A stretch of DNA of 15,883 nucleotides from Maribacter sp. (lineage in GTDB: Bacteria; Bacteroidota; Bacteroidia; Flavobacteriales; Flavobacteriaceae). The DNA is taken from positions 1 through 15,883 of the forward strand of contig JANQUX010000445.1 of the NCBI GenBank assembly GCA_030730545.1. Reading direction: 5' to 3'. A model generated the notes under the pieces. The model worked only from the letters and a program-made list of their open reading frames with translations. It did no database searches and was not told the DNA's origin. Every line of letters starts with the position of its first letter. Within the stretch, counting starts at the first letter, position 1. Shown one piece after another: positions 4,403 through 15,882 of this stretch. The position numbers and the translations under genes are program-made.

Positions 4403-5026
4403 TTAAACCTTTTTTACTCTAATGGCTAGCAATAGTAGTAAATCTTCTAAAATACTTTGACCCTTATCTTTATTATAAAATACTTGTAAATCTTGTTTAA
4501 ACTCTGGTGTTAACGAACCATGTGCTGTCTTATAATCTTCTACAAGCTTTGTCGCCTTTATTGATCTAGGGCCCCAAGTAGCTACTACGGTATCATCCTT
4601 CTTATCAATCGCAATTAATTTAGGTATCGACATGCCACCGTTTGTTAAAAACTGATTCATAATATCTAAATTCTCATCACGAAGGATAATAGATAGTGAT
4701 ATATTCGGATTTATATCAGCGATTTTGTTCATTACAGGTAATGCAGGTGAAGCATCGCCACACCAACTTTCTGACAAAACTAACCATGAGATTTTCTGAT
4801 CGATAGATTTTATCTTAGCTACAACCTCGTCGCTAAACTTCAAGGTTTTATCCCAACGGCGCATACGGCTATTGTTAAGCTGAGTATACTGCGATAAAGC
4901 TTCTGATTGTTCAGGACCGGTGGATTCATTTTTTTCTGCAAGTTCAGAAACCAACGCCCTATATTCTGCATAGCTATAACTCTTCTCTAATCCTTTTTTA
5001 ATCAAATCTTCAACAACTAATTCCAT
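4403..5026 (-). CDS. thioredoxin-fold family protein (Thioredoxin_9-like)
   Basis: 207 residues from the ATG at 5026; a TTG codon directly before it would add one residue, and ATG is preferred. The N-terminal ~75 residues are helical and polar. Then comes a thioredoxin-like fold: WLVLSESWCGDASPALPVM (81-99), the NISLSIILRDENLDIMNQF strand/helix, and the cis-Pro segment MSIPKLIAID, followed by WGPRS. The active-site position reads W-C-G-D-A, with Cys89 but no second cysteine, so classic CxxC dithiol exchange is not possible; this resembles the Thioredoxin_9 family. There is no signal peptide, so it is probably cytoplasmic. It lies 62 bases downstream of the TolC-like gene on the same strand. 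It may be read through from the efflux operon or from its own promoter near a palindrome at 5065-5077. Confidence 0.85.
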   Translation of the reverse strand: MELVVEDLIKKGLEKSYSYAEYRALVSELAEKNESTGPEQSEALSQYTQLNNSRMRRWDKTLKFSDEVVAKIKSIDQKISWLVLSESWCGDASPALPVMNKIADINPNISLSIILRDENLDIMNQFLTNGGMSIPKLIAIDKKDDTVVATWGPRSIKATKLVEDYKTAHGSLTPEFKQDLQVFYNKDKGQSILEDLLLLLAIRVKKV

Positions 5027-5064
5027 CAAGCTTACTTTTTAATTATACACCCTAATCGAACCCA

Positions 5065-5088: not shown

Positions 5089-6492
5089 TTACAAATTCTC
5101 TGGGATTACCGCTAAACTGTTGAACAACTTCGCTTTGGCCGTAAAGAATTTATTCTCAACCTGATTTTGTTTTAAAACGGCATCGATCAACTTGGTTTCT
5201 CTAGAATTAATTAAGAAAAGTGAACTTTCGCCAAAGCTGAACTTTCGTTCTTCGGCTGCCAATAGCGCTTCATAACTTGTTACTATATCAGCTATTAATA
5301 TATTCTGATTTTCAAAAGAATCTAACTCGTTATAGATGGCGGTTATTTTGTTCAGAATCTGAACCTCAGCATTATCAAACTCGAATTGGGCATCTCTTAA
5401 TTTCAATTTTGCCAATTTCAAATCTCCTCTTTCTTTTCTAAGAAATAGCGGAAGTTCAAAATTCAATCCGCCTTTATAATTTTGAGTTTCAAATGAATTC
5501 AAGTACTCTGGCTGATCGGTTATAAACTTATATTCCACATCTATTCTAGGCAATAGCTTATTCGTTTTTAAACGTTTATCTACCACTAAACCATCAATTT
5601 TATAGCCTAATGATTTTAACTTCGGATGATTCTCTAACACAAAACTATCCAAAGGTTTACCTAAAATTTCAAGAGCTTGGTCTATTTCTGTATCTAACGA
5701 AGTTTCTGGTATAACGTTCGGCTGTAATTCCATCGGTATATTTTCACCCATCCACAGGTAATTAGAAAGTTCTAATCTTGCATTTCGTAAAACAACACTC
5801 GCCTGCTCCATTTCTAAAGCTCTATTCTGCACCGAAATTTTCGCCTCAACAGTATCAATAGCAGCAATTTCACCCGATTGTGCACTTCGGTTAACACCTT
5901 TCAACCTTACTTTGGCGTTCAATAAAAAATCATTGAATACCAAACTATTACGGTATGCCTGCAGCCAATCGAAATAAGCCAAAGAGGCATCGAACAAAAT
6001 CTGATTGACCAATAAATCTCTATCTGCCTTTGACTGCTCTCTAAAAAACTTTGCCTTTTTTACGGTAGCCATTCGCTCGTTGATCCAAGAACCACGACCC
6101 AGAGAAAGCGCTACTCCGGCACTATAGAGTCCGTCATCGGGCACATTTCTTTCGGCATTTAAAAATTCGCCCGAATACTGCTCAAACTCCCCTTTTAATT
6201 CTATACCATACCAAGTAGGTACTTTAAAGGTAGAATTCAATAAATCGTAATACTCGGTGCCTTTAAACTCTTTCGTTGAATAATCGACAGATATCTTAGG
6301 ATCGAAACCACCACGTGCTTTCATTAGATTTGCCTGACCTACGCTCATAACCATCTCTGCCTGCTTCGCTATTGGATGATATTTTTTTACATAACCCAAG
6401 TACTCTCTAAAATTTAGCTGTACAGAATCTGCAGTCTGAGCATTCGAGAATAACCCAGCAATTAGATATAAAAAGACAACAATTCTCTTCAT
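5089..6492 (-). CDS. TolC family outer-membrane efflux channel
   Basis: 467 residues with a signal peptide (MKRIVVFLYLIAGLFSNAQT, cleavage near residue 18, no lipobox). The mature part has the two-fold repeat of outer-membrane efflux proteins (OEP). Long amphipathic helices such as QILFDASLAYFDWLQAYRNS and ILNKITAIYNELDSFENQN alternate with beta-strand segments (GLYSAGVALSLGRGSWINERM; YKGGLNFELPLFLRKERGDL). TolC-type trimers form the outer-membrane barrel and periplasmic tunnel of tripartite exporters. It starts 2 bases after the stop of the HlyD-type adaptor gene and closes the operon tetR - ABC - adaptor - channel. This order implies a dedicated channel rather than a shared one. Substrate unknown. 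Confidence 0.92.
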   Translation of the reverse strand: MKRIVVFLYLIAGLFSNAQTADSVQLNFREYLGYVKKYHPIAKQAEMVMSVGQANLMKARGGFDPKISVDYSTKEFKGTEYYDLLNSTFKVPTWYGIELKGEFEQYSGEFLNAERNVPDDGLYSAGVALSLGRGSWINERMATVKKAKFFREQSKADRDLLVNQILFDASLAYFDWLQAYRNSLVFNDFLLNAKVRLKGVNRSAQSGEIAAIDTVEAKISVQNRALEMEQASVVLRNARLELSNYLWMGENIPMELQPNVIPETSLDTEIDQALEILGKPLDSFVLENHPKLKSLGYKIDGLVVDKRLKTNKLLPRIDVEYKFITDQPEYLNSFETQNYKGGLNFELPLFLRKERGDLKLAKLKLRDAQFEFDNAEVQILNKITAIYNELDSFENQNILIADIVTSYEALLAAEERKFSFGESSLFLINSRETKLIDAVLKQNQVENKFFTAKAKLFNSLAVIPENL

Positions 6493-6494
6493 CG

Positions 6495-7847
6495 TTATTT
6501 TTTTACAGGTTTATCTTGAGCCCCATCTGGTTGATAATAATTGGCAGGGAAGCCGTTTAATTGTCGCCATAGTTCGTACCAAATAGGAACATCTTCTAAC
6601 AATGCAATGGTATTTGCACCAGAACCTACACGCAAGGCATTTGGCCATGGTTGATCTTCTTTATCTGGCGACAACAACACCCTATATTTTCCATTAGGGT
6701 TTATAAAAGTTTCAATAGCCACTACCCTGCCTGCATACGTACCGTAAGATGCATTTGGCCAACCACTAAATACAATTGCAGGCCAACCGTCGAACTGAAT
6801 TCGTACCGATTCATCTAAATGAATTAACGGCAAATCTATAGGGTCTACAAACGTTTCTACAGCCATATCATAATCTGCCGGCATAATACCCACTAACGGC
6901 GTACCTTCTTTAAAAGTCTCACCGATACCTGCGGTAAGAACTTTATTAATATACCCATTTTGGGGTGCTCGAATATAGCGTAATGCATTTCGCATTTGAT
7001 AATTGGTATAATCGTTCTCTAATTTACTTACCTGCGCCTCAGAATCGAATTGGTTCGACATCGCCGTAAATTTATCGCTCTGTGCCTTTGAAATTTTATC
7101 GGTATACGAAGCTTGCACACTATTGATCTCTACTTCGGCATTGATTATTTCATTTTTAGCAGCCAACAGCTTATTCTCTTGAGAAAGTAATTTTGCTTGT
7201 GTTTCTTGCAGCTTTAGTCGCTTTTCTTCAACATCGGTTACCGCTTTTAAACCTTCACTCTCTAATTGAGCTGTACGCTCATATTGGCGCTCTGCAATTT
7301 GAATATTGGTTTTAGCAGCCTCAAAGTCTATACTGTCACTTTGTGCTTTTAATTTCGATTGCAATAATTTATTCTTGGCTTGCTCTAGCTTTAATCTTCT
7401 TTCATTAATAAGTGCGCCAACTTGATTATCTAATGACTTTACTTTATCGCCATAAGAGGTAACCGATGAACTTTTAGACTTTAATTGTTCTCCTGTTCTT
7501 TCTACTAAATCTGGATCGAAATATTCTGATTTTACTTCTGATATAAACAGAATAGTATCTCCCTTTTTTACATAATCGCCTTCTTGCACATACCACTCTT
7601 CGATTCTACCCGGAATTTGAGATTGAATAGTTTGCGGTCTTTGACCAGGAGTCAATGTCGTTAAAAACCCTCTAGCATTTATAGTTTGTGTCCATGGTAA
7701 AAACAATACAATTACACCTACTACCGCAAAAGCGAATAGAAATCTATTGAAGTGCTTATAGTATTTTTTATGGTCTACTTTTTGAACGGATTTAAAACGC
7801 TCAATTGAAACTCTCTCGTTTAGTTTATTATGAGATATGTTAAGCAT
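6495..7847 (-). CDS. HlyD family membrane-fusion (adaptor) protein
   Basis: 450 residues. Cytoplasmic N-terminus of ~34 residues, one membrane helix at 35-51, then a periplasmic body. A biotinyl-lipoyl-like half motif lies at ~80-105 (GRIEEWYVQEGDYVKKGDTI). A long coiled-coil hairpin of ~170 residues follows (rich in Lys, Gln, Glu, Ala), then the second lipoyl half (YIRAPQNGYINKVLTAGIGE) and a beta-barrel domain (VRIQFDGWPAIVFSGWP). Adaptors of this type join an inner-membrane ABC transporter to a TolC channel. Its ATG overlaps the end of the ABC gene by 8 bases (ATGCTTAA) and is preceded by AGGAA, one of the few good Shine-Dalgarno-like sites here. The coiled coil is long for a small-drug pump and would fit type I secretion or large-substrate export, but the substrate is unknown. 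Confidence 0.92.
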   Translation of the reverse strand: MLNISHNKLNERVSIERFKSVQKVDHKKYYKHFNRFLFAFAVVGVIVLFLPWTQTINARGFLTTLTPGQRPQTIQSQIPGRIEEWYVQEGDYVKKGDTILFISEVKSEYFDPDLVERTGEQLKSKSSSVTSYGDKVKSLDNQVGALINERRLKLEQAKNKLLQSKLKAQSDSIDFEAAKTNIQIAERQYERTAQLESEGLKAVTDVEEKRLKLQETQAKLLSQENKLLAAKNEIINAEVEINSVQASYTDKISKAQSDKFTAMSNQFDSEAQVSKLENDYTNYQMRNALRYIRAPQNGYINKVLTAGIGETFKEGTPLVGIMPADYDMAVETFVDPIDLPLIHLDESVRIQFDGWPAIVFSGWPNASYGTYAGRVVAIETFINPNGKYRVLLSPDKEDQPWPNALRVGSGANTIALLEDVPIWYELWRQLNGFPANYYQPDGAQDKPVKK

Positions 7848-9522
7848 TTTTTCCTGAGATTTCGTTAATAATCTGTCCTTTATCCATAGTAATTATACGC
7901 GAACATTTTTTGATCCACTTGTCATTTTCACTTACAACAAGCAATGCCCAACCATTTGCCGGGTCGCTTAGAAAGCTTAAAATTCGATCAGCTTCTTCAC
8001 TATTGAACTGATCTAATGGATCTTTTAGAATAAGTAATTTTGGTTTACGAACGATACTTCTTGCCAGTACAATCTTTTTGGACACCGTATGCGGTATCTG
8101 TTTACCTTCTGGGTAGAGTACTGTGTTAAGACCATCTGGTTGCTTCTTTACAAAATCTGTCAAACCTACTTTATCAAGCGCCCAATAGACCTGCTCACTT
8201 GTGGTCTCTTTATCACCAAATGTGATGTTATTTAGAATAGTACCCTCAAAAGGTGATTCTTCTGGTAATGACTGACCAAGATGAGAGCGGTAGTAATTTA
8301 AATTCATCCCCTTTAAAGAAACTCCGTTTACATATACCCCACCACTATCTGGCTCTAGAATGCCAGCTATAATGCGTAACAACGTATTTTTACCAGAACC
8401 ACTGTTGCCTCGCAATAAAATAGTACAGGTAGGCGAAATGGTTAAACTTAGGTTTTTAATTATATCTCGCTTTTGCTGCGGTACACTATAAGAAATATCG
8501 CTCAGCTCAATGGTAAAGGATTGGTTCTCTAAAAATGGCTTTTCTCCTTCTTGCGGTTCTAATTCTTTATCTACCACCTGCCCCATTTTTTCTAAAGATG
8601 TCAATAGATCATAGAAAGTTTCCAAACCTAGAATCAACTTCTCTACAGAACTGATTACCAAAAGAATAATAATCTCTGCTGCAACAAATTGACCAATATT
8701 CATTTCTTGATTCAATACCAATAAACCACCGATCAACAAAAGACCACCGGTTACCAGAACCTTAAAACCGATCATTTGTATAAATTGTATCACTATTACC
8801 TTAAAATGACTTTCTCTTGCATTTAAATACTCTACTACCAGCGTATCATTTTTATCTAATGCATGAGAAGTTTTACCCGAAAGTTTGAAACTAACTATTG
8901 AACGGGCTATTTCCTGTAACCAGTGCGCCACTTTATACTTACTCTTCGACTCATCTAAACTAGTATCGAAACCTCTTTGTGCCGTAAACTTGAATACGAT
9001 ATAGATCAATAGCATTAGCAACAGACCATACACGATAAAAAACGGATGATAAAATGATAACAATAATAAACCGAAAATGATTTGTAATAACGCCGCAGGA
9101 AAATCAATCAATACTTTTGATAATGACTTTTGAATGGTCAACGTATCAAAAAATCGATTCGCTAATTCTGGCGGATAGTAGTTATGTAATTCACTCATTT
9201 TTATCTTAGGAAATCGATATGCAAACTCAAATGAGGCCCTGGTAAATATTTTTTGCTGTACGTTTTCAATAATTCGTATCTGCATTAGTTGAAGTATACC
9301 TACAAAGGCAACACCTAGGGTTACCAAAATTACCAATACCACCCATGATGAACTTATCTGGGCACCTTGCATAAGGTTAATAATCGCCTGTATACCTAAA
9401 GGCAAAGACAGGTTTACCACACCAGCGAATATGGCATAATAAAATACCTGAAACACATCTTTCTTATCAAGCTTTAACAGACCTAGAAAGCGTTGCCAAG
9501 CGGTTAGTATATTTTTATTCAT
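7840..9522 (-). CDS. ABC exporter half-transporter with degenerate ATPase domain
   Basis: 560 residues. The N-terminal ~310 form an exporter transmembrane domain (ABC type 1) with about six hydrophobic helices and no N-terminal C39 peptidase. Residues ~335-555 form the nucleotide-binding domain. The fold is clear, but key motifs deviate. Walker A is GNSGSGKNT: K378 is kept and N379 stands where Ser/Thr coordinates Mg. The Q-loop region (SLPEESPFEGTI) lacks Gln. The LSGGQ signature region reads IPHTV before SKKIVLARSIV (481-491). Walker B/catalytic site is LLILKDPLDQ, with K500 for Asp and D501 for Glu. The H-loop is VVSEN with E532 for His. The frame is intact, so this is not a pseudogene. 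It could be an ATPase-dead subunit, a nucleotide-binding sensor, or need an active partner encoded elsewhere. It overlaps the regulator and adaptor genes by 8 bases each. Confidence 0.9.
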   Translation of the reverse strand: MNKNILTAWQRFLGLLKLDKKDVFQVFYYAIFAGVVNLSLPLGIQAIINLMQGAQISSSWVVLVILVTLGVAFVGILQLMQIRIIENVQQKIFTRASFEFAYRFPKIKMSELHNYYPPELANRFFDTLTIQKSLSKVLIDFPAALLQIIFGLLLLSFYHPFFIVYGLLLMLLIYIVFKFTAQRGFDTSLDESKSKYKVAHWLQEIARSIVSFKLSGKTSHALDKNDTLVVEYLNARESHFKVIVIQFIQMIGFKVLVTGGLLLIGGLLVLNQEMNIGQFVAAEIIILLVISSVEKLILGLETFYDLLTSLEKMGQVVDKELEPQEGEKPFLENQSFTIELSDISYSVPQQKRDIIKNLSLTISPTCTILLRGNSGSGKNTLLRIIAGILEPDSGGVYVNGVSLKGMNLNYYRSHLGQSLPEESPFEGTILNNITFGDKETTSEQVYWALDKVGLTDFVKKQPDGLNTVLYPEGKQIPHTVSKKIVLARSIVRKPKLLILKDPLDQFNSEEADRILSFLSDPANGWALLVVSENDKWIKKCSRIITMDKGQIINEISGKNA

Positions 9523-10201
9523 CTATTCTTTGATTTAATGTATTAGAAACAAGATGCGTCAAAAATTGTGTTGGCGTAACTTGGTCATTACAATCTGTTA
9601 GTGATGGAAAATGTTCTTTTAAAAAATGCTGATGTAAACCGTTTTCGAGAATGGTACTTGCTAAACTGGCAGGGTATTGATAGTCTGCATCTACTAAAGA
9701 TATCATCTCACCCAATCTACCCACCAATCTTTTATAAATACTATAAAAGCCTTCTTTGTTCTCCAAGTCGACCTCTTTGGTCAAATATGATTTAGAATAT
9801 TCGTTGACTACAATGTTGCTCAAAAGTACTTCATTGATGTGTGAAAAATCAGAATCTTCCTTTATTGTTTTAGTCATAATAAAAATGGCCTGCACTAATT
9901 TTTCTTTCGGATCTTTAATACTATTGGTAGCAAACACCAACTGATACTCCATCCACCCCCAATACCACGATGTCAGATACAGAAGAAGTTTATGTTTATT
10001 TTCAAAATAACGGTATATGGAACTTTCATTTGAACCTATTTTTACCCCAAGCTTCTTAAAAGTAAAACATTCGAAACCTATTTCATCGATCATTTGAATA
10101 CTAGTTTCTATTATTTTTTTACCTAGACCAGAAGACTCTGGATCTTTTAAAAAAAGCTTCTCATTTATTCTAATCTGTACACTTTGCAATAGCCGATCCA
10201 T
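9515..10201 (-). CDS. TetR/AcrR family transcriptional regulator
   Basis: 228 residues from the ATG at 10201; an in-frame TTG at 10216 would add five residues (MNKIT), but it would sit within a few bases of the predicted transcription start, so ATG is chosen. TetR-type helix-turn-helix at ~47-66: FTFKKLGVKIGSNESSIYRYF, followed by ENKHKLLLYLTSWYW, the usual end of the DNA-binding domain. Residues ~80-228 form the helical ligand-binding domain, with no strong similarity I can name. An arm of ~25 residues precedes helix 1, longer than usual. It is the first gene of the exporter operon and its stop overlaps the ABC start by 8 bases (ATGAATAA). It probably represses its own operon by binding the 17-base palindrome at 10231-10247 and is released by an unknown, likely exported, ligand. 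Confidence 0.9.
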   Translation of the reverse strand: MDRLLQSVQIRINEKLFLKDPESSGLGKKIIETSIQMIDEIGFECFTFKKLGVKIGSNESSIYRYFENKHKLLLYLTSWYWGWMEYQLVFATNSIKDPKEKLVQAIFIMTKTIKEDSDFSHINEVLLSNIVVNEYSKSYLTKEVDLENKEGFYSIYKRLVGRLGEMISLVDADYQYPASLASTILENGLHQHFLKEHFPSLTDCNDQVTPTQFLTHLVSNTLNQRIDE

Positions 10202-10224
10202 AGTAATTTTATTCAATAAAAACG

Positions 10225-10584: not shown

Positions 10585-13500
10585 ATGCATATTACTTTAT
10601 ATCAGAAAATCTCGAAATATTTTTATTGCGTTCTAAGCACTATTTTCGAGCGAAAATTTCTCTTTATCCTTTTAAACATTCTGTTTTACAATTCAATTGT
10701 AACAGGGCAAAATTGTAGTTCTTTTGATGTCTCCACCGCATCCAAAACAGAACTTCTTCTAAATCAATCCAATAATTTTCTTATTAATTCTATAAGAACG
10801 GCCAATTGGACTAAAAATACCAATGACGAGTTCAGTTATAATGATAATGGTACAAACTTTAATAATAGAGCCTTGTTTTATTCGGAACGTTCTTTTCAAT
10901 CCGAGTTCGGCTTTAGGTTAACGGTGGAATATACCACCGGATCCGTAGCGGATGATGGGGCACATAATCTCTCTTTTGGTTTAATAAGTGATGTAGACGA
11001 CCTTTCGCAATATAATGGCTTTAATCCGTTCAAATCGGACAACAGTTTATACGGTATAGGGGTTAATTTAACCGCGGACGATGATGCGACTTCCAGAGGA
11101 TTGAATTTTACTAACGGCAATGAGCGTATTACACTCCATACCTCAGGCCTAAGACATCAATTTGTGGCAGGGGAAAAGACCAAAATTTTTATAGAAGTCG
11201 GTATCGGAGGTTTTTGGTCCTTATATATTAATGACCAATATGAGCAATCTGGTGTTTTTTCGGAAGGTTTTGATCTTAGCAAAAGCTACCATGTTGCTGT
11301 TTATGGACAGGACGATAACGGAGCCGGTAAATCGATACAATCCATAAAATTGGAAAGACAGTATTTTCCAGGGGAACGTGCCATAGGTATTAGGGGACAT
11401 TGGTCCGGTGGCGAAGGAGACATAGAAAGTGTAAAGGATTTTAAAACCCTTTATACCATGCGAGCCACGTTTACTTCGGGAGCCGTAGAATCGGCACAAC
11501 AAAGGGCACCGAATAAATTATTGGAACAGATTGCAATTGATGCAGGTGTTGCATCCGTAGTGCCAACTTGGGGCGATCTGAGCTTAGATGAACCACTAAC
11601 AGACCCTTACCGTACCATTCTTAATGAAATTCGCGCAGCGGGCTTTAAGGTCAAGGCTTACGTTAATAGTGAAAATTTTGTTGGCACCAATACAGATGCA
11701 CTTCAATCTTTTACAGATGCCTGGTTTGCATGGTGTGATACAAACCCCGAAGCGCAAGCCTTTATTAACAGTCAGCCCTATCATACGGGTATTTGGAACA
11801 GGGATACCCAACAATACGAAGATGCTACTGCGACTTTTCCGAAGAGAAAATACATGTTCTGTTACGCGGAATACGTGATCAAAGATTACTCGTTACGCTA
11901 TGGAGCGGATATCAACAATTGGATTTTTGATGATGGATCCACCATGGAAGATAATGGCGACAATGCCACTAGTGGTATCTTAGAGGAGCAACGAATATAT
12001 CAAGCCTTCTCCAATGCCGCCCGTGCTGGAAATACCAGTATACCTACTGCCTTTCAAAACGGTAGAAGTACATCAAATTACAGAGATTTTCCTTTTGCGC
12101 ATGCCGTATGGTTCGAAGATTTTAAATTCGGCCATGCTTTTGGTGGCAACAATGATCATGCCAGCAAAACCGGGGGCCAGTTTAATTTAAATTACAGGCA
12201 TGTAACACGAATGACCGAAACCAATGCCTACGTTCACGATGGTGGCGCATGGACCTGGGATGACGGGATAATCGGGAATTTTCATTCTAAACTGGCGACA
12301 ACAGCTTGGAAATATGGTCCTACCCAAGCATGGGAGCAAGATGATTTTAATCAATGGAACTATGAGGCGCTTAAAGCCGGTGGTCATATGACTTGGGGTG
12401 GATCAACGCCCAGAAGCAGTAACACGCTCCGTGACTGGGCTTATGAACTTTTAAAGAACATGGACGATTATTTAAGTGAAAACTTAAATCCTGAAGAGCC
12501 TAAATGGGCACGAGCTTATACCATATTACCAGAGGCGACCACCTGCGACCCGTATTATCATGTATTAGTAGACGGCAAAGACTTTTGGGACCCTAAAGGA
12601 GATGCTATGAGCCTAAGCCTTTGGTCTTGCGCGCCTTCGTGGCTAACGATAACTAAAGATGAGGATAATCCTGGGCAGTGGATTTTAAGCGGAATACCCA
12701 ATGATAGTGAGGACACAGTTCTTGAATTTGGAATAGATGCTACGGACGGTGAAGGATTTGTAGGTGCGAGAGCATTAGAATTAAAGGTAAACGGTGGTGC
12801 CACCACAATCACGAATCCTGGTAATGGAATGCCTATGTGGGCATCGGATATCAATACCATAGCGGCCTTTACGTATCAAGAATTCAAATTTGACCTTAAA
12901 AGATGTCAAAATTTTGAAGATTTTGACGGAGACAGCTTATCGGTTACTATTGAAAATGCACCGGATTGGTTGAGTTTAACATCTGAATTCAAAGATATTT
13001 ATCAATTGCAGGGCACACCAACCTGTGCAGGTGATTATACGGTTAGACTAGCTTTAAGTGACGGCACTAACACTGTTTACAAAGATGTTGAGATAATGGT
13101 TGCGGACGACGAATTTATTGCTATGACCAGTAATTCCATAAACGGTGGCGCTTCTTGGAATCTACCCGACTTAACATCAAATACCCCTCAATATTCTTAT
13201 AACAATAGAAGTAATAATTACGATTATAGGGCGCTATTATATTCCGACCGGACCTTTCAATCCGATACCGGACTTCGATTAACGATCAAATATACTACAG
13301 GTAGTATAGAGGATACAGGAGGGCATAATTTTTCCTTTGGTCTTATAAGTAGTGATACCGATTTAGCAACTTATAACGGCGTAAACCCTTTTAAAACTGA
13401 CACTTCGGTGTACGCCATAGGAACAAACTTGACAGCCGATGGAAACGCAGATTACAGAGGGCTTAATTTTAGTAATGCCACATCGGTAACCAACCTGGAT

Positions 13501-15027
13501 GAATCGGGCACCAATGTCCAGTTCCCTACGAACATTTCTTCTACGGTTATCATAGAGGTGACTATAGACGGGGCATGGAGTTACTCTATAAATGGTGTTC
13601 TGGAAGCATCGGGATTTATCGCCGAAGGCTTCGATTTATCTAAAAGCTATTATGTTGCCGTTTACGGGCAAGATGATAATGGAGGTCAAAAGACAATAGA
13701 AAAAATTGCCGTATCAACATGTTTTAACACCTGTACAGACAATAGTCCAACAAGTATAGATCTAGAAATATCCGAAATTACCTGCGAGAACCCCGATTCC
13801 CTTACCCTAACGGCAAACGTTACTGGTGTTGACGAAAATATACAGGAAGTGGCTTTCTATCAAGACAATATGTTGATCGGTACCTCGACCCAAGCTCCTT
13901 ACACTATCGACATTGATCAACTATCTAACGGAGAATATTCTTTTTACGCTTTAATCACTGATAATTGTGGTAACCATATTACTAGCAATGTCAAGACATT
14001 TAAGTCTTTTGAGGCATTGACTCTTGATAGTGTTACTACAAATGTCAGCGCCAACGGTAACGATGGCAGTATCATCGTTGCGGCAACAGGCGGACTAGCA
14101 CCTTATCAATACAAACTTAATGATTATGATTTAGTTGACTTGAATGTATTTGAAAACTTGCCTGAGGGAGACTATATAATTTCTGTGAACGATGCAAATG
14201 GATGTTCTCAAACCCTGACTATTTCAATTACAGGTCCCAGCTTCATCTCCGTGACCAGCGTTACGCTACAACTGTCGCAACTTGAAATGCGCATAGGCGA
14301 AACGATCCAATTAAATGCGGTAATCAATCCTGCCGATGCGACCAACCAGAATGTTTTCTGGAGCAGTAGTGATCAGAGTATAGCCACGGTAAACGACAAC
14401 GGATCGGTCACATCTCTAACCAACGGCACCGTAACGATTACAGCGAAAAGCCAAGACGGTGGTTTCGAGGCAACTGTTACCATTATAGTAACCTCGACTT
14501 TCATTTCTATAACGGATATTGAGATAGAACAATTCGAACTTGCTATGACGGTAGGTGAAACAGCACAGTTGACTATGGTCATCAATCCCACCAATGCGAC
14601 CAACCAGAATGTTTTCTGGAGCACTAGCGATAACAGTGTGGCAACCGTTGACCAGAACGGCACGGTAACGGCAAATGGCGAAGGAATGGTAACCATTACG
14701 CTAATTACACAAGATGGAGCACATATCGCACAGACGACAGTAATCGTCGAGGGATATTCGAACAGTGAAAGTTCAATGGTCTATCCCAATCCGGCAAGAG
14801 CCAGCGAGAAAATGACCGTACGCTATAATTACGGAAAGGAGACAGGACTGGCGAATATGACCTTATATGATCCAGACGGCAAAAAAATCAACTTTATGAA
14901 AGCTGACCTACAAAAAGGTATGAACGAAATTGAAATCGACACCTTTATGTTATCCACCGGTTTCTACTTCCTTTTTACGCTAGACGATACCGGGCGTTCT
15001 GAAGTTTTCAAAATTATTATAAATTAA
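10585..15027 (+). CDS. large secreted multidomain protein, putative glycoside hydrolase with T9SS type A tail
   Basis: 1480 residues. Long signal peptide (hydrophobic core ~25-41, cleavage near TGQ at 42), then: jelly-roll-like domain A (~60-257); a putative (beta/alpha)8 domain (~262-632) with IGIRGHWSGG, VKAYVNSENF, NNWIFDDGS (D449/D450), WTWDDG (D559/D560), QAWEQDDF and AGGHMTWGGSTPR (H601); two Ig-like He_PIG/cadherin-type domains (~640-735, ~745-843); jelly-roll-like domain B (~848-1044), a clear duplicate of A; an Ig-like domain (~1055-1140); a SprB-like repeat (~1146-1217); two Big_2-like domains (~1223-1305, ~1309-1391); and a T9SS type A tail (1399-1480, VYPNPARASEKMTV). The Asp after a hydrophobic strand recalls the nucleophile region of GH29 fucosidases and the related GH107 fucanases, but I cannot assign a family. 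Likely a secreted or surface enzyme acting on a polysaccharide, with A and B as possible carbohydrate-binding modules. No susCD pair is nearby. Confidence 0.8.
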   Translation: MHITLYQKISKYFYCVLSTIFERKFLFILLNILFYNSIVTGQNCSSFDVSTASKTELLLNQSNNFLINSIRTANWTKNTNDEFSYNDNGTNFNNRALFYSERSFQSEFGFRLTVEYTTGSVADDGAHNLSFGLISDVDDLSQYNGFNPFKSDNSLYGIGVNLTADDDATSRGLNFTNGNERITLHTSGLRHQFVAGEKTKIFIEVGIGGFWSLYINDQYEQSGVFSEGFDLSKSYHVAVYGQDDNGAGKSIQSIKLERQYFPGERAIGIRGHWSGGEGDIESVKDFKTLYTMRATFTSGAVESAQQRAPNKLLEQIAIDAGVASVVPTWGDLSLDEPLTDPYRTILNEIRAAGFKVKAYVNSENFVGTNTDALQSFTDAWFAWCDTNPEAQAFINSQPYHTGIWNRDTQQYEDATATFPKRKYMFCYAEYVIKDYSLRYGADINNWIFDDGSTMEDNGDNATSGILEEQRIYQAFSNAARAGNTSIPTAFQNGRSTSNYRDFPFAHAVWFEDFKFGHAFGGNNDHASKTGGQFNLNYRHVTRMTETNAYVHDGGAWTWDDGIIGNFHSKLATTAWKYGPTQAWEQDDFNQWNYEALKAGGHMTWGGSTPRSSNTLRDWAYELLKNMDDYLSENLNPEEPKWARAYTILPEATTCDPYYHVLVDGKDFWDPKGDAMSLSLWSCAPSWLTITKDEDNPGQWILSGIPNDSEDTVLEFGIDATDGEGFVGARALELKVNGGATTITNPGNGMPMWASDINTIAAFTYQEFKFDLKRCQNFEDFDGDSLSVTIENAPDWLSLTSEFKDIYQLQGTPTCAGDYTVRLALSDGTNTVYKDVEIMVADDEFIAMTSNSINGGASWNLPDLTSNTPQYSYNNRSNNYDYRALLYSDRTFQSDTGLRLTIKYTTGSIEDTGGHNFSFGLISSDTDLATYNGVNPFKTDTSVYAIGTNLTADGNADYRGLNFSNATSVTNLDESGTNVQFPTNISSTVIIEVTIDGAWSYSINGVLEASGFIAEGFDLSKSYYVAVYGQDDNGGQKTIEKIAVSTCFNTCTDNSPTSIDLEISEITCENPDSLTLTANVTGVDENIQEVAFYQDNMLIGTSTQAPYTIDIDQLSNGEYSFYALITDNCGNHITSNVKTFKSFEALTLDSVTTNVSANGNDGSIIVAATGGLAPYQYKLNDYDLVDLNVFENLPEGDYIISVNDANGCSQTLTISITGPSFISVTSVTLQLSQLEMRIGETIQLNAVINPADATNQNVFWSSSDQSIATVNDNGSVTSLTNGTVTITAKSQDGGFEATVTIIVTSTFISITDIEIEQFELAMTVGETAQLTMVINPTNATNQNVFWSTSDNSVATVDQNGTVTANGEGMVTITLITQDGAHIAQTTVIVEGYSNSESSMVYPNPARASEKMTVRYNYGKETGLANMTLYDPDGKKINFMKADLQKGMNEIEIDTFMLSTGFYFLFTLDDTGRSEVFKIIIN
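14336..14365 (+). repeat. 30-base exact direct repeat, copy 1 (in Big_2-like domain 1)
   Basis: This stretch is identical to 14594-14623 and encodes the segment ATNQNVFWS in the first of two adjacent Big_2-like domains. The offset is 258 bases (86 codons), equal to the domain length. Confidence 0.9.
14594..14623 (+). repeat. 30-base exact direct repeat, copy 2 (in Big_2-like domain 2)
   Basis: Identical to 14336-14365; the surrounding domain sequence has diverged more. It fits a tandem duplication of one Ig-like domain, or later homogenisation between the copies. Confidence 0.9.
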
Positions 15028-15267: not shown

Positions 15268-15882
15268 TTAATAATCGGAAATCCATTCGAAATTATCTTG
15301 AATAACTTGGTTCTTCTCTTCTTTCAAATATGCTAAAAATGCCAATGCGGTAGGTGATAGTTTTTTAGATTTAAGCCAAATAATATTCCACATTGTAAGT
15401 ATTGGCAAGCCTTTGATCTTAACTATTTGAACTTCATTATTTTTAAGCTCGTTTTTTAACCCTATAATCGGCATAATAGAAAAACCTAAACCCGCAATTA
15501 CCGCTTGTTTAACAGCTTCATTAGAAGTAAGTTCAATTTTTTTACGAACCTCAAATTTATTTTCTATTATAAAATTTTCCATGGCAGCTCTTGTGGCAGA
15601 ACCTGTCTCTCTATAGAGCAATGCCGACTCTTCAAAAATCTTTTTCTTAGATAGTTTTTTATTCGCTAATCCGTTTTTACCGGCAATTAAATATAATTTG
15701 TTCTGCATAAGTTCTACGCTATCAACACTTAATTTCGTCGGCAAAACAGATACCATTGCAAAATCTACGGTATTCAATTCTAAACTTTCAATTACCTGAG
15801 CCTTATTTGTTACATCGATAATCAGATCAACACCTTTATTTTGGCGAGAGAAATTAGAAAGTAAATAAGGCATTACGTATTT
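15268..15882 (-). CDS. LysR family transcriptional regulator, effector-binding domain (5' end outside window)
   Basis: The frame is open to the right edge (codons AAA TAC GTA precede the first Met at 15873), so only the C-terminal ~205 residues are present and the helix-turn-helix is outside the window. The visible part is a LysR substrate-binding domain (periplasmic-binding-protein fold): KYVMPYLLSNFSRQNKGVDL at the start of lobe 1, NTVDFAMVSVLPTKL, then YRETGSATRAAMENFI (the typical effector-loop position) and VKQAVIAGLGFSIMPIIGLKNEL, the classic V..GLGI..LP motif. LysR regulators sense a small effector and often control a divergent neighbour; that neighbour would lie to the right, out of view. 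There is no evidence that it controls the convergent secreted-protein gene. Effector unknown. Confidence 0.92.
   Translation of the reverse strand, partial: KYVMPYLLSNFSRQNKGVDLIIDVTNKAQVIESLELNTVDFAMVSVLPTKLSVDSVELMQNKLYLIAGKNGLANKKLSKKKIFEESALLYRETGSATRAAMENFIIENKFEVRKKIELTSNEAVKQAVIAGLGFSIMPIIGLKNELKNNEVQIVKIKGLPILTMWNIIWLKSKKLSPTALAFLAYLKEEKNQVIQDNFEWISDY

Follow-up and report, generated by a model that had tools for sequence, protein, structure and literature searches.

Graded loss of the ATPase domain in a Bacteroidota exporter family: sequence comparison of a degenerate ABC subunit from Maribacter

The window analysed here is a 15,883-nucleotide stretch of DNA from Maribacter sp. (GenBank assembly GCA_030730545.1, contig JANQUX010000445.1). 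On its minus strand it carries an intact ABC exporter gene (9522..7840; 560 aa, open frame), which encodes the membrane subunit of a TetR-ABC-HlyD-TolC operon occurring across Bacteroidota. The protein showed a Pfam ABC_membrane match at residues 27-291 (PF00664, above cut-off) and an ABC_tran match at residues 356-502, but most ATP motifs of its nucleotide-binding domain (NBD) are gone. On the comparison of sequences, it is rather probable that the protein serves a tripartite, type I secretion-like exporter as its inner-membrane subunit and belongs to a lineage that gave up ATP hydrolysis; we infer an ion gradient as the drive. As the ATP motifs are mostly lost, and the whole NBD was lost twice with the export partners kept, another energy source is probable.

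Graded loss of the ATP motifs

A set of 302 family sequences was reduced at 82% identity to 163 representatives and aligned with 13 ordinary ABC exporters, which fixed the motif columns. An earlier note, made from the window sequence alone, had read almost all ATPase motifs as degenerate, and each of its readings held by alignment column (all coordinates of the gene are on the minus strand). Walker A, GNSGSGKNT (residues 372-380, 8383..8409), has K378-N379 instead of K-S/T. In the Q-loop region, LGQSLPEESPFEGT (residues 415-428, 8239..8280), P420 stands at the Gln position. The LSGGQ signature is replaced by I476-P477-H478-T479-V480 (8083..8097). In Walker B, LLILKD (residues 496-501, 8020..8037), K500 and D501 stand at the positions of the Asp and the catalytic Glu, respectively, and the H-loop His position holds E532 (7927..7929). 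The Walker A change is real in the window but local, as 108 of the 126 degenerate representatives keep K-S/T; the K-N pair recurs in the close Maribacter rows that we inspected.

The family is widespread. Of 149 Flavobacteriaceae genomes, 85 gave a match (E ≤ 1e-100), always a single one; at the order level, 47 of 148 genomes did so (1e-60), and at the phylum level, 62 of 247 (1e-50). The nearest relatives listed are Maribacter proteins (95%), and all 59 listed matches of 91-95% identity are 560 aa long. Relatives of 555-560 aa are often named ‘peptidase domain-containing ABC transporter’; Pfam detected no peptidase domain in the window protein. Most basal members and some others (L203-L214, L194, L195, L197, L199, and L200) are longer, about 690-830 aa, with an N-terminal extension that gave no Pfam match in the three scanned (L195, L205, and L211).

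A full motif set was present in 10 of the 13 canonical controls. Basal relatives (n = 18) all keep Walker A K-S/T, and most keep the Walker B D-E pair (15) and the H-loop His (12), but the signature S-G-Q was seen in only 2 and the Q-loop Gln in none. In the degenerate representatives (n = 126), neither D-E nor the signature S..GQ occurs, and His and Gln are left in 3 each; the commonest pairs at residues 500-501 are E-D (37/126) and K-D (30). The P-loop pair is altered in 18 of the 157 NBD-bearing rows, controls included, and the quick tree requires at least 12 changes of this state. Row L321, truncated at a contig end, was excluded from the motif counts. Read on this tree, the counts suggest an early loss of the Q-loop and signature, followed by that of Walker B and His, with the P-loop lasting longest. 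By its sequences, the family is thus a gradient from a near-canonical NBD to no NBD. The loss of the signature, Q-loop, Walker B, and H-loop is family-wide, which excludes that the window copy alone has decayed, the outcome that the earlier note had named as its own refutation. A further case in another lineage may be P0265 (589 aa, 24% identical), a TMD-bearing protein (TMD, transmembrane domain) whose NBD, judged by eye, seemingly also lacks the motifs.

The two halves of the protein differ in conservation. The TMD (residues 8-322, 8557..9501) is the better-conserved half: over 49 family loci, the median identity to the window genome was 76.0% for the TMD and 49.5% for the NBD, and the NBD was higher in 0 of 49. 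The ordinary exporter of 29 Flavobacteriaceae genomes gave 58.8% and 77.8%, respectively, with the NBD higher in 29 of 29. The conservation pattern is therefore inverted relative to the ordinary exporter of the same bacterial family. Median dN/dS in Maribacter was 0.020 for the TMD (8 pairs) and 0.043 for the NBD (9 pairs). The corresponding values were 0.008 and 0.052 (2 pairs each) in Croceitalea/Allomuricauda/Flagellimonas, and 0.016 (5 pairs) and 0.050 (15 pairs) in Aquimarina. These are simple Nei-Gojobori counts, and the pairs are few because a dS below 1.5 was required. Purifying selection acts on the NBD, which is constrained about 2-6 times less than the TMD.

Relatives without a nucleotide-binding domain

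Some family matches stop near query residue 325, where the genes themselves end. Two NBD-less forms were found, a TMD-only protein beside hlyD and a TMD-HlyD fusion. In the genus around genome G438, 34 of 41 genomes gave a match at 1e-40; 17 hold a TMD-only form and 18 an NBD-bearing form, with both in one genome (G551). Its two proteins, L302 without an NBD and L224 with a degenerate NBD, make a natural pair for comparison. TMD-only forms occur in 5 genera and 3 families in all (four genera and two families beyond that of G438). The named ones are mostly Hymenobacter, and the best 120 of 1824 matches are all 316-356 aa long. Of 20 TMD-only proteins, 19 gave an ABC_membrane match (E up to 0.1). 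In 11 of 14 distinct TMD-only operons, the TMD gene and hlyD share 8 bp, as L215 shows directly; in one other operon they share 20 bp, and in the last two they are separated by 34 and 66 bp. All 14 operons continue with a TolC gene. Median dN/dS of the Hymenobacter TMD-only genes was 0.133 (33 pairs).

The fusions comprise L190 and L191 together with P0241-P0248 and P0250-P0254 at 45-100% identity, from several sources, one of them named Schleiferiaceae. Two fusions scanned by Pfam showed HlyD domains, with neither ABC_tran nor ABC_membrane. The identity of the fusion TMD rests therefore on its match to the family, 36-37% over residues 8-340 with E 1.4e-63 or lower. In P0255, the nearest NBD-bearing relative of the fusions, the NBD region is unrecognised by Pfam, and only the H-loop His is canonical among nine motif columns.

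No NBD remnant was found in any frame of 24 NBD-less loci (16 distinct operons), and no exporter-type NBD adjoins them. The sole clear NBD in these loci is a 245-aa ABC open reading frame (ORF) about 4 kb downstream in L312; weak matches came from a 411-residue frame of L215 (E 1e-4) and from two others (E 0.3-0.7). An assembly or annotation artefact was ruled out, as the NBD-less forms come from many genomes and sources, most TMD-only genes overlap hlyD, and the loci contain no NBD remnant.

The two NBD-less groups were defined by architecture before any tree was made. The careful TMD tree used 85 of 176 rows, picked after a quick tree that flagged long branches at the fusions. It placed the TMD-only clade (100/99) as sister to the NBD-bearing L194, and the fusion clade (100/100) as sister to P0255. 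One common NBD-less clade was rejected by a topology test (p-AU 5.6e-6). A single origin of both forms was ruled out by the tree and the AU test, although the long branch of the fusion clade calls for caution. Judged by these phylogenies, loss of the whole NBD happened twice independently. The proposal of the earlier note that transport is not driven by the protein's own ATP hydrolysis gains support from this comparison, since relatives with the same HlyD and TolC partners lack any NBD after two independent losses.

Once the NBD is gone, its contact region on the TMD is expected to relax. For the coupling helices (7 and 6 columns), whose boundaries, like those of all helices here, were estimated from alignment and hydropathy, we determined what share of the residues conserved elsewhere in the family is retained. 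Coupling helix 2 (approximately residues 199-222, 8857..8928) kept 0.33 in the TMD-only proteins compared with 0.88 in six NBD-bearing sisters, and 0.10 in the fusions compared with 0.71 in three NBD-bearing sisters. In each NBD-less clade this was the largest drop among 13 segments. Coupling helix 1 of the fusions kept 0.28, against 0.83 in the sisters.

Energy source and competing explanations

In the proposed mechanism, the TMD homodimer would keep alternating access and would hand its substrate, a peptide or other small compound, over to the HlyD-TolC conduit. The drive would be an ion gradient, most likely of protons, through buried conserved acids such as E283 (8674-8676) and E294 (8641-8643) in transmembrane helix 6 (TM6, approximately residues 276-300, 8623..8697). 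In NBD-bearing members such as the window protein, the NBD would be a structural or nucleotide-sensing module and no motor. The TetR protein presumably keeps the operon silent in the absence of its ligand.

At the columns of E86, E191, E283, and E294, an acidic residue stands in 126, 124, 126, and 126 of the 126 degenerate representatives, respectively, in all 12 TMD-only and all 6 fusion representatives, and in 0, 0, 0, and 2 of the 13 canonical controls. E283 and E294 lie inside the hydrophobic core of TM6, and E86 and E191 lie outside hydrophobic stretches. There are two precedents. SbmA is described as a proton-driven transporter without an NBD that descended from NBD-bearing ABC proteins and has a glutamate ladder, which is partially present in the NBD-bearing YddA (excerpts of PMC13316013). 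The conserved acids of the present family are reminiscent of this ladder, and their presence in NBD-bearing members makes the parallel a close one. The MsbA membrane domain without its NBD moves substrates with a pH gradient (excerpts of PMC4979069). By analogy with these systems, proton coupling in this family is plausible. The features of the sequence do not separate a gated channel, which the earlier note had also offered, from a secondary transporter.

Several observations weigh against an ion-driven exporter without ATP hydrolysis. Basal relatives with near-canonical NBDs are mostly acidic in the same columns (E86 18/18, E191 13/18, E283 17/18, E294 16/18), so the acids were not gained with NBD loss. 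By the same test, the ordinary exporter has two conserved acids in hydrophobic stretches. The acids thus give no diagnosis of proton coupling, and we dropped them as proof of it. In MsbA, deletion of K382, which cripples the NBD, strongly inhibits ethidium efflux, whereas removal of the NBD does not abolish it (again from the part of PMC4979069 available), so retaining a dead NBD may be detrimental. The TMD-only clade retains coupling helix 1 (0.81, and 0.81 in the sisters). ATPases elsewhere in the genome may be partners. The P-loop retained in 108 of 126 degenerate representatives means that nucleotide binding may still matter.

This last point is the core of the strongest rival, ATP binding without hydrolysis. 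The NBD pair would bind ATP via the P-loop and gate or stabilise the transporter, in a CFTR-like or sensor role, while the substrate moves down its own gradient. The K-S/T pair has persisted with the other motifs gone, the Walker A glycines and K378 are among the best-conserved NBD columns, and the NBD is under purifying selection. However, the ATP sandwich lacks its closing signature residues, the P-loop pair has itself changed repeatedly, and the NBD-less clades keep the operon. We hold this explanation to be a real possibility, somewhat short of even; for the NBD-bearing members it can coexist with the preferred one. A partner ATPase in trans, which could be either a canonical ABC exporter subunit or a separate NBD that pairs with the degenerate or NBD-less protein, was also raised in the earlier note and has been weakened. 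Damage affects both the Walker and the signature face of the window protein, so pairing with a canonical subunit would still leave the site incomplete. Among 210 family loci (flanks of about 1.5-6 kb; four proteins counted twice), none carries a second ABC exporter gene, and the sole extra ABC ORF is a stand-alone 254-aa protein in L098. No conserved fourth gene was found beside the TMD-only operons, and after TMD, HlyD, and TolC the next cluster recurs in 4 of 14 loci; the fusion neighbourhood comprises two loci only, one of 3.2 kb, and is hence little tested. The decay of coupling helix 2 in the TMD-only and fusion clades, joined in the fusions by that of helix 1, suggests from sequence that no NBD acts in trans, most clearly for the fusions; the retained helix 1 of the TMD-only clade points the other way. 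Beyond the loci, the genome-wide test covered one genome, the small fusion genome G273. Among its 11 stand-alone NBDs, LptB scored above its cut-off, and nine had best matches, below cut-off, to non-exporter or other ABC types: LolD/MacB (3), FtsE, GldA, MlaF, WtpC, DrrA, and teichoic-acid-export types. The eleventh, L331 (225 aa), gave weak matches only (ABC-F, part of CydD) and stands on the side of a partner, as does the presence of other ABC ATPases in the genomes inspected. Of 41 Flavobacteriaceae genomes, 40 have a canonical exporter, among them all 16 without the degenerate gene; this exporter is therefore not specifically co-conserved. We consider a partner in trans improbable.

Still less probable is a residual slow ATPase, in which the protein, despite its altered Walker B (E-D, K-D) and missing signature, would hydrolyse ATP weakly and power transport in this way. 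D501 could serve as a weak base, and Asp at the place of the catalytic Glu is known in degenerate heterodimer sites; in our alignment it occupies this position in 83 of 151 rows (a count that includes 6 fusion rows). Against this, the signature, the Q-loop Gln, and the His are lost together, K500 replaces the magnesium ligand in the window protein, and the NBD-less members retain the operon. Simple decay of a gene on its way to a pseudogene is hardly credible. It would agree with a Walker A in Maribacter altered beyond the family norm and with the faster evolution of the NBD (median dN/dS 0.043-0.052 vs 0.008-0.020). However, the frame is open, the 59 close matches share one length, dN/dS is far under 1 in both halves, and the gene is found once per genome in 85 of 149 Flavobacteriaceae genomes with its operon kept. 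Recent decay of the window copy was ruled out, as the motif pattern is family-wide and the gene is under selection.

Operon context, known systems, and significance

In the window, the genes follow closely in the order TetR, ABC, HlyD, and TolC, all on the minus strand. The TetR-family regulator (9515..10216; Pfam TetR_N) is the first operon gene and has 233 aa as listed, with a putative TTG start. The HlyD-type periplasmic adaptor (6495..7847, 450 aa) and the TolC-type outer-membrane channel (5089..6492, 467 aa, Pfam OEP) were assigned by Pfam. With starts as listed mechanically, TetR/ABC and ABC/HlyD overlap by 8 bp each, and HlyD and TolC are 2 bp apart. The next gene encodes a Thioredoxin_9 protein (4403..5029, minus strand, Pfam); it is frequent at this place, and its membership in the system is uncertain. 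A same-strand HlyD gene lies within 300 bp downstream in 206 of the 210 family loci, and the other four are two contig ends and two fusions. Direct matching in 80 loci showed TetR upstream in 78 (the other two start at or near a contig end), HlyD and TolC downstream in 78 each, and Thioredoxin_9 downstream in 54, where some loci end before reaching that gene. Divergent from the operon, the window encodes a 1480-aa protein (10585-15027, plus strand) with Big_2 domains, a SprB repeat, and a type IX secretion sorting tail. An ORF cut by the window end (15268-15882, minus strand) resembles, in our own reading of its sequence, the effector-binding part of a LysR-type regulator.

The window protein is nearest to PCAT and type I secretion system (T1SS) exporters such as LssB, NHLM, PrtD, and HlyB. 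It resembles them in the TMD (best profiles TIGR03796 and TIGR03375) and in the three-part operon, where the HlyD adaptor and TolC channel typical of T1SS are present. It differs in that most NBD motifs are gone, or no NBD is left in some of its relatives, and in lacking a Pfam peptidase domain. In function it would resemble a tripartite exporter with an inner-membrane subunit that is either unpowered or powered in another way. The functional NBD of a type IV ABC exporter or T1SS subunit is missing, with only part of Walker A left, and the best match to a curated T1SS/PCAT model reached 178.4 bits, far under its NCBIfam cut-off of 853.3. SLiPT proteins (SbmA/BacA) have no NBD; this is also the case for the TMD-only and fusion relatives, which share with them an ABC-exporter TMD and an eroded coupling helix, but not for the window protein, which keeps a degenerate NBD. 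The conserved glutamates are partly present already in NBD-bearing relatives, as for YddA in the accessible portion of PMC13316013. SbmA differs as an importer derived from YddA-like proteins, whereas the present family sits in a HlyD/TolC exporter operon nearer to PCAT/T1SS. When the 20 TMD-only proteins were searched against Pfam and PDB profiles, SbmA did not appear; their alignment matched ABC_membrane and the ComA structures. By sequence, these relatives are thus no SbmA/BacA proteins.

Heterodimeric exporters (TM287/288, BmrCD, TmrAB, and TAP) are alike in having lost catalytic residues with the domain conserved (PMC7756269, in part). They differ in keeping one full site via the partner; here both faces are damaged, and no gene for a complementary partner subunit occurs in the 210 loci. 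In MsbA-MD and LmrA-MD, the TMD alone can move substrate with a proton gradient, according to the same portion of PMC4979069, but these are laboratory truncations, whereas here the truncation is natural and happened twice. A PADLOC search for a defence role returned a single weak hit for the window protein (E 3e-4); a TMD-only protein and a fusion protein had no hit. Among the top-ranked papers of literature searches in open PubMed Central, we recognised no account of the family or of an NBD-less exporter with HlyD and TolC, and the terms ‘Bacteroidetes’ and ‘lack NBD’ are absent from the accessible part of the review PMC8277102.

So far, truncated laboratory constructs and SbmA have supplied the arguments on whether an ABC exporter's membrane part can be powered in the absence of its ATPase. 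The family may represent an exporter converted in nature from an ATP-driven pump to an ion-gradient transporter, with two NBD removals and a second origin apart from SbmA, a view for and against which we see the balance as even. Its living intermediates, as classed by sequence, would be near-canonical, degenerate, P-loop lost, relic, and none. If true, nature would have produced its own equivalent of MsbA-MD, joined here to a TolC conduit. The comparison also suggests that many proteins whose annotation implies an ATP-driven exporter (here often ‘peptidase domain-containing ABC transporter’) are probably neither ATP-driven nor peptidase-containing. With this graded natural series in one conserved operon, the contribution of the NBD and the passage from primary pump to secondary transporter become directly testable.

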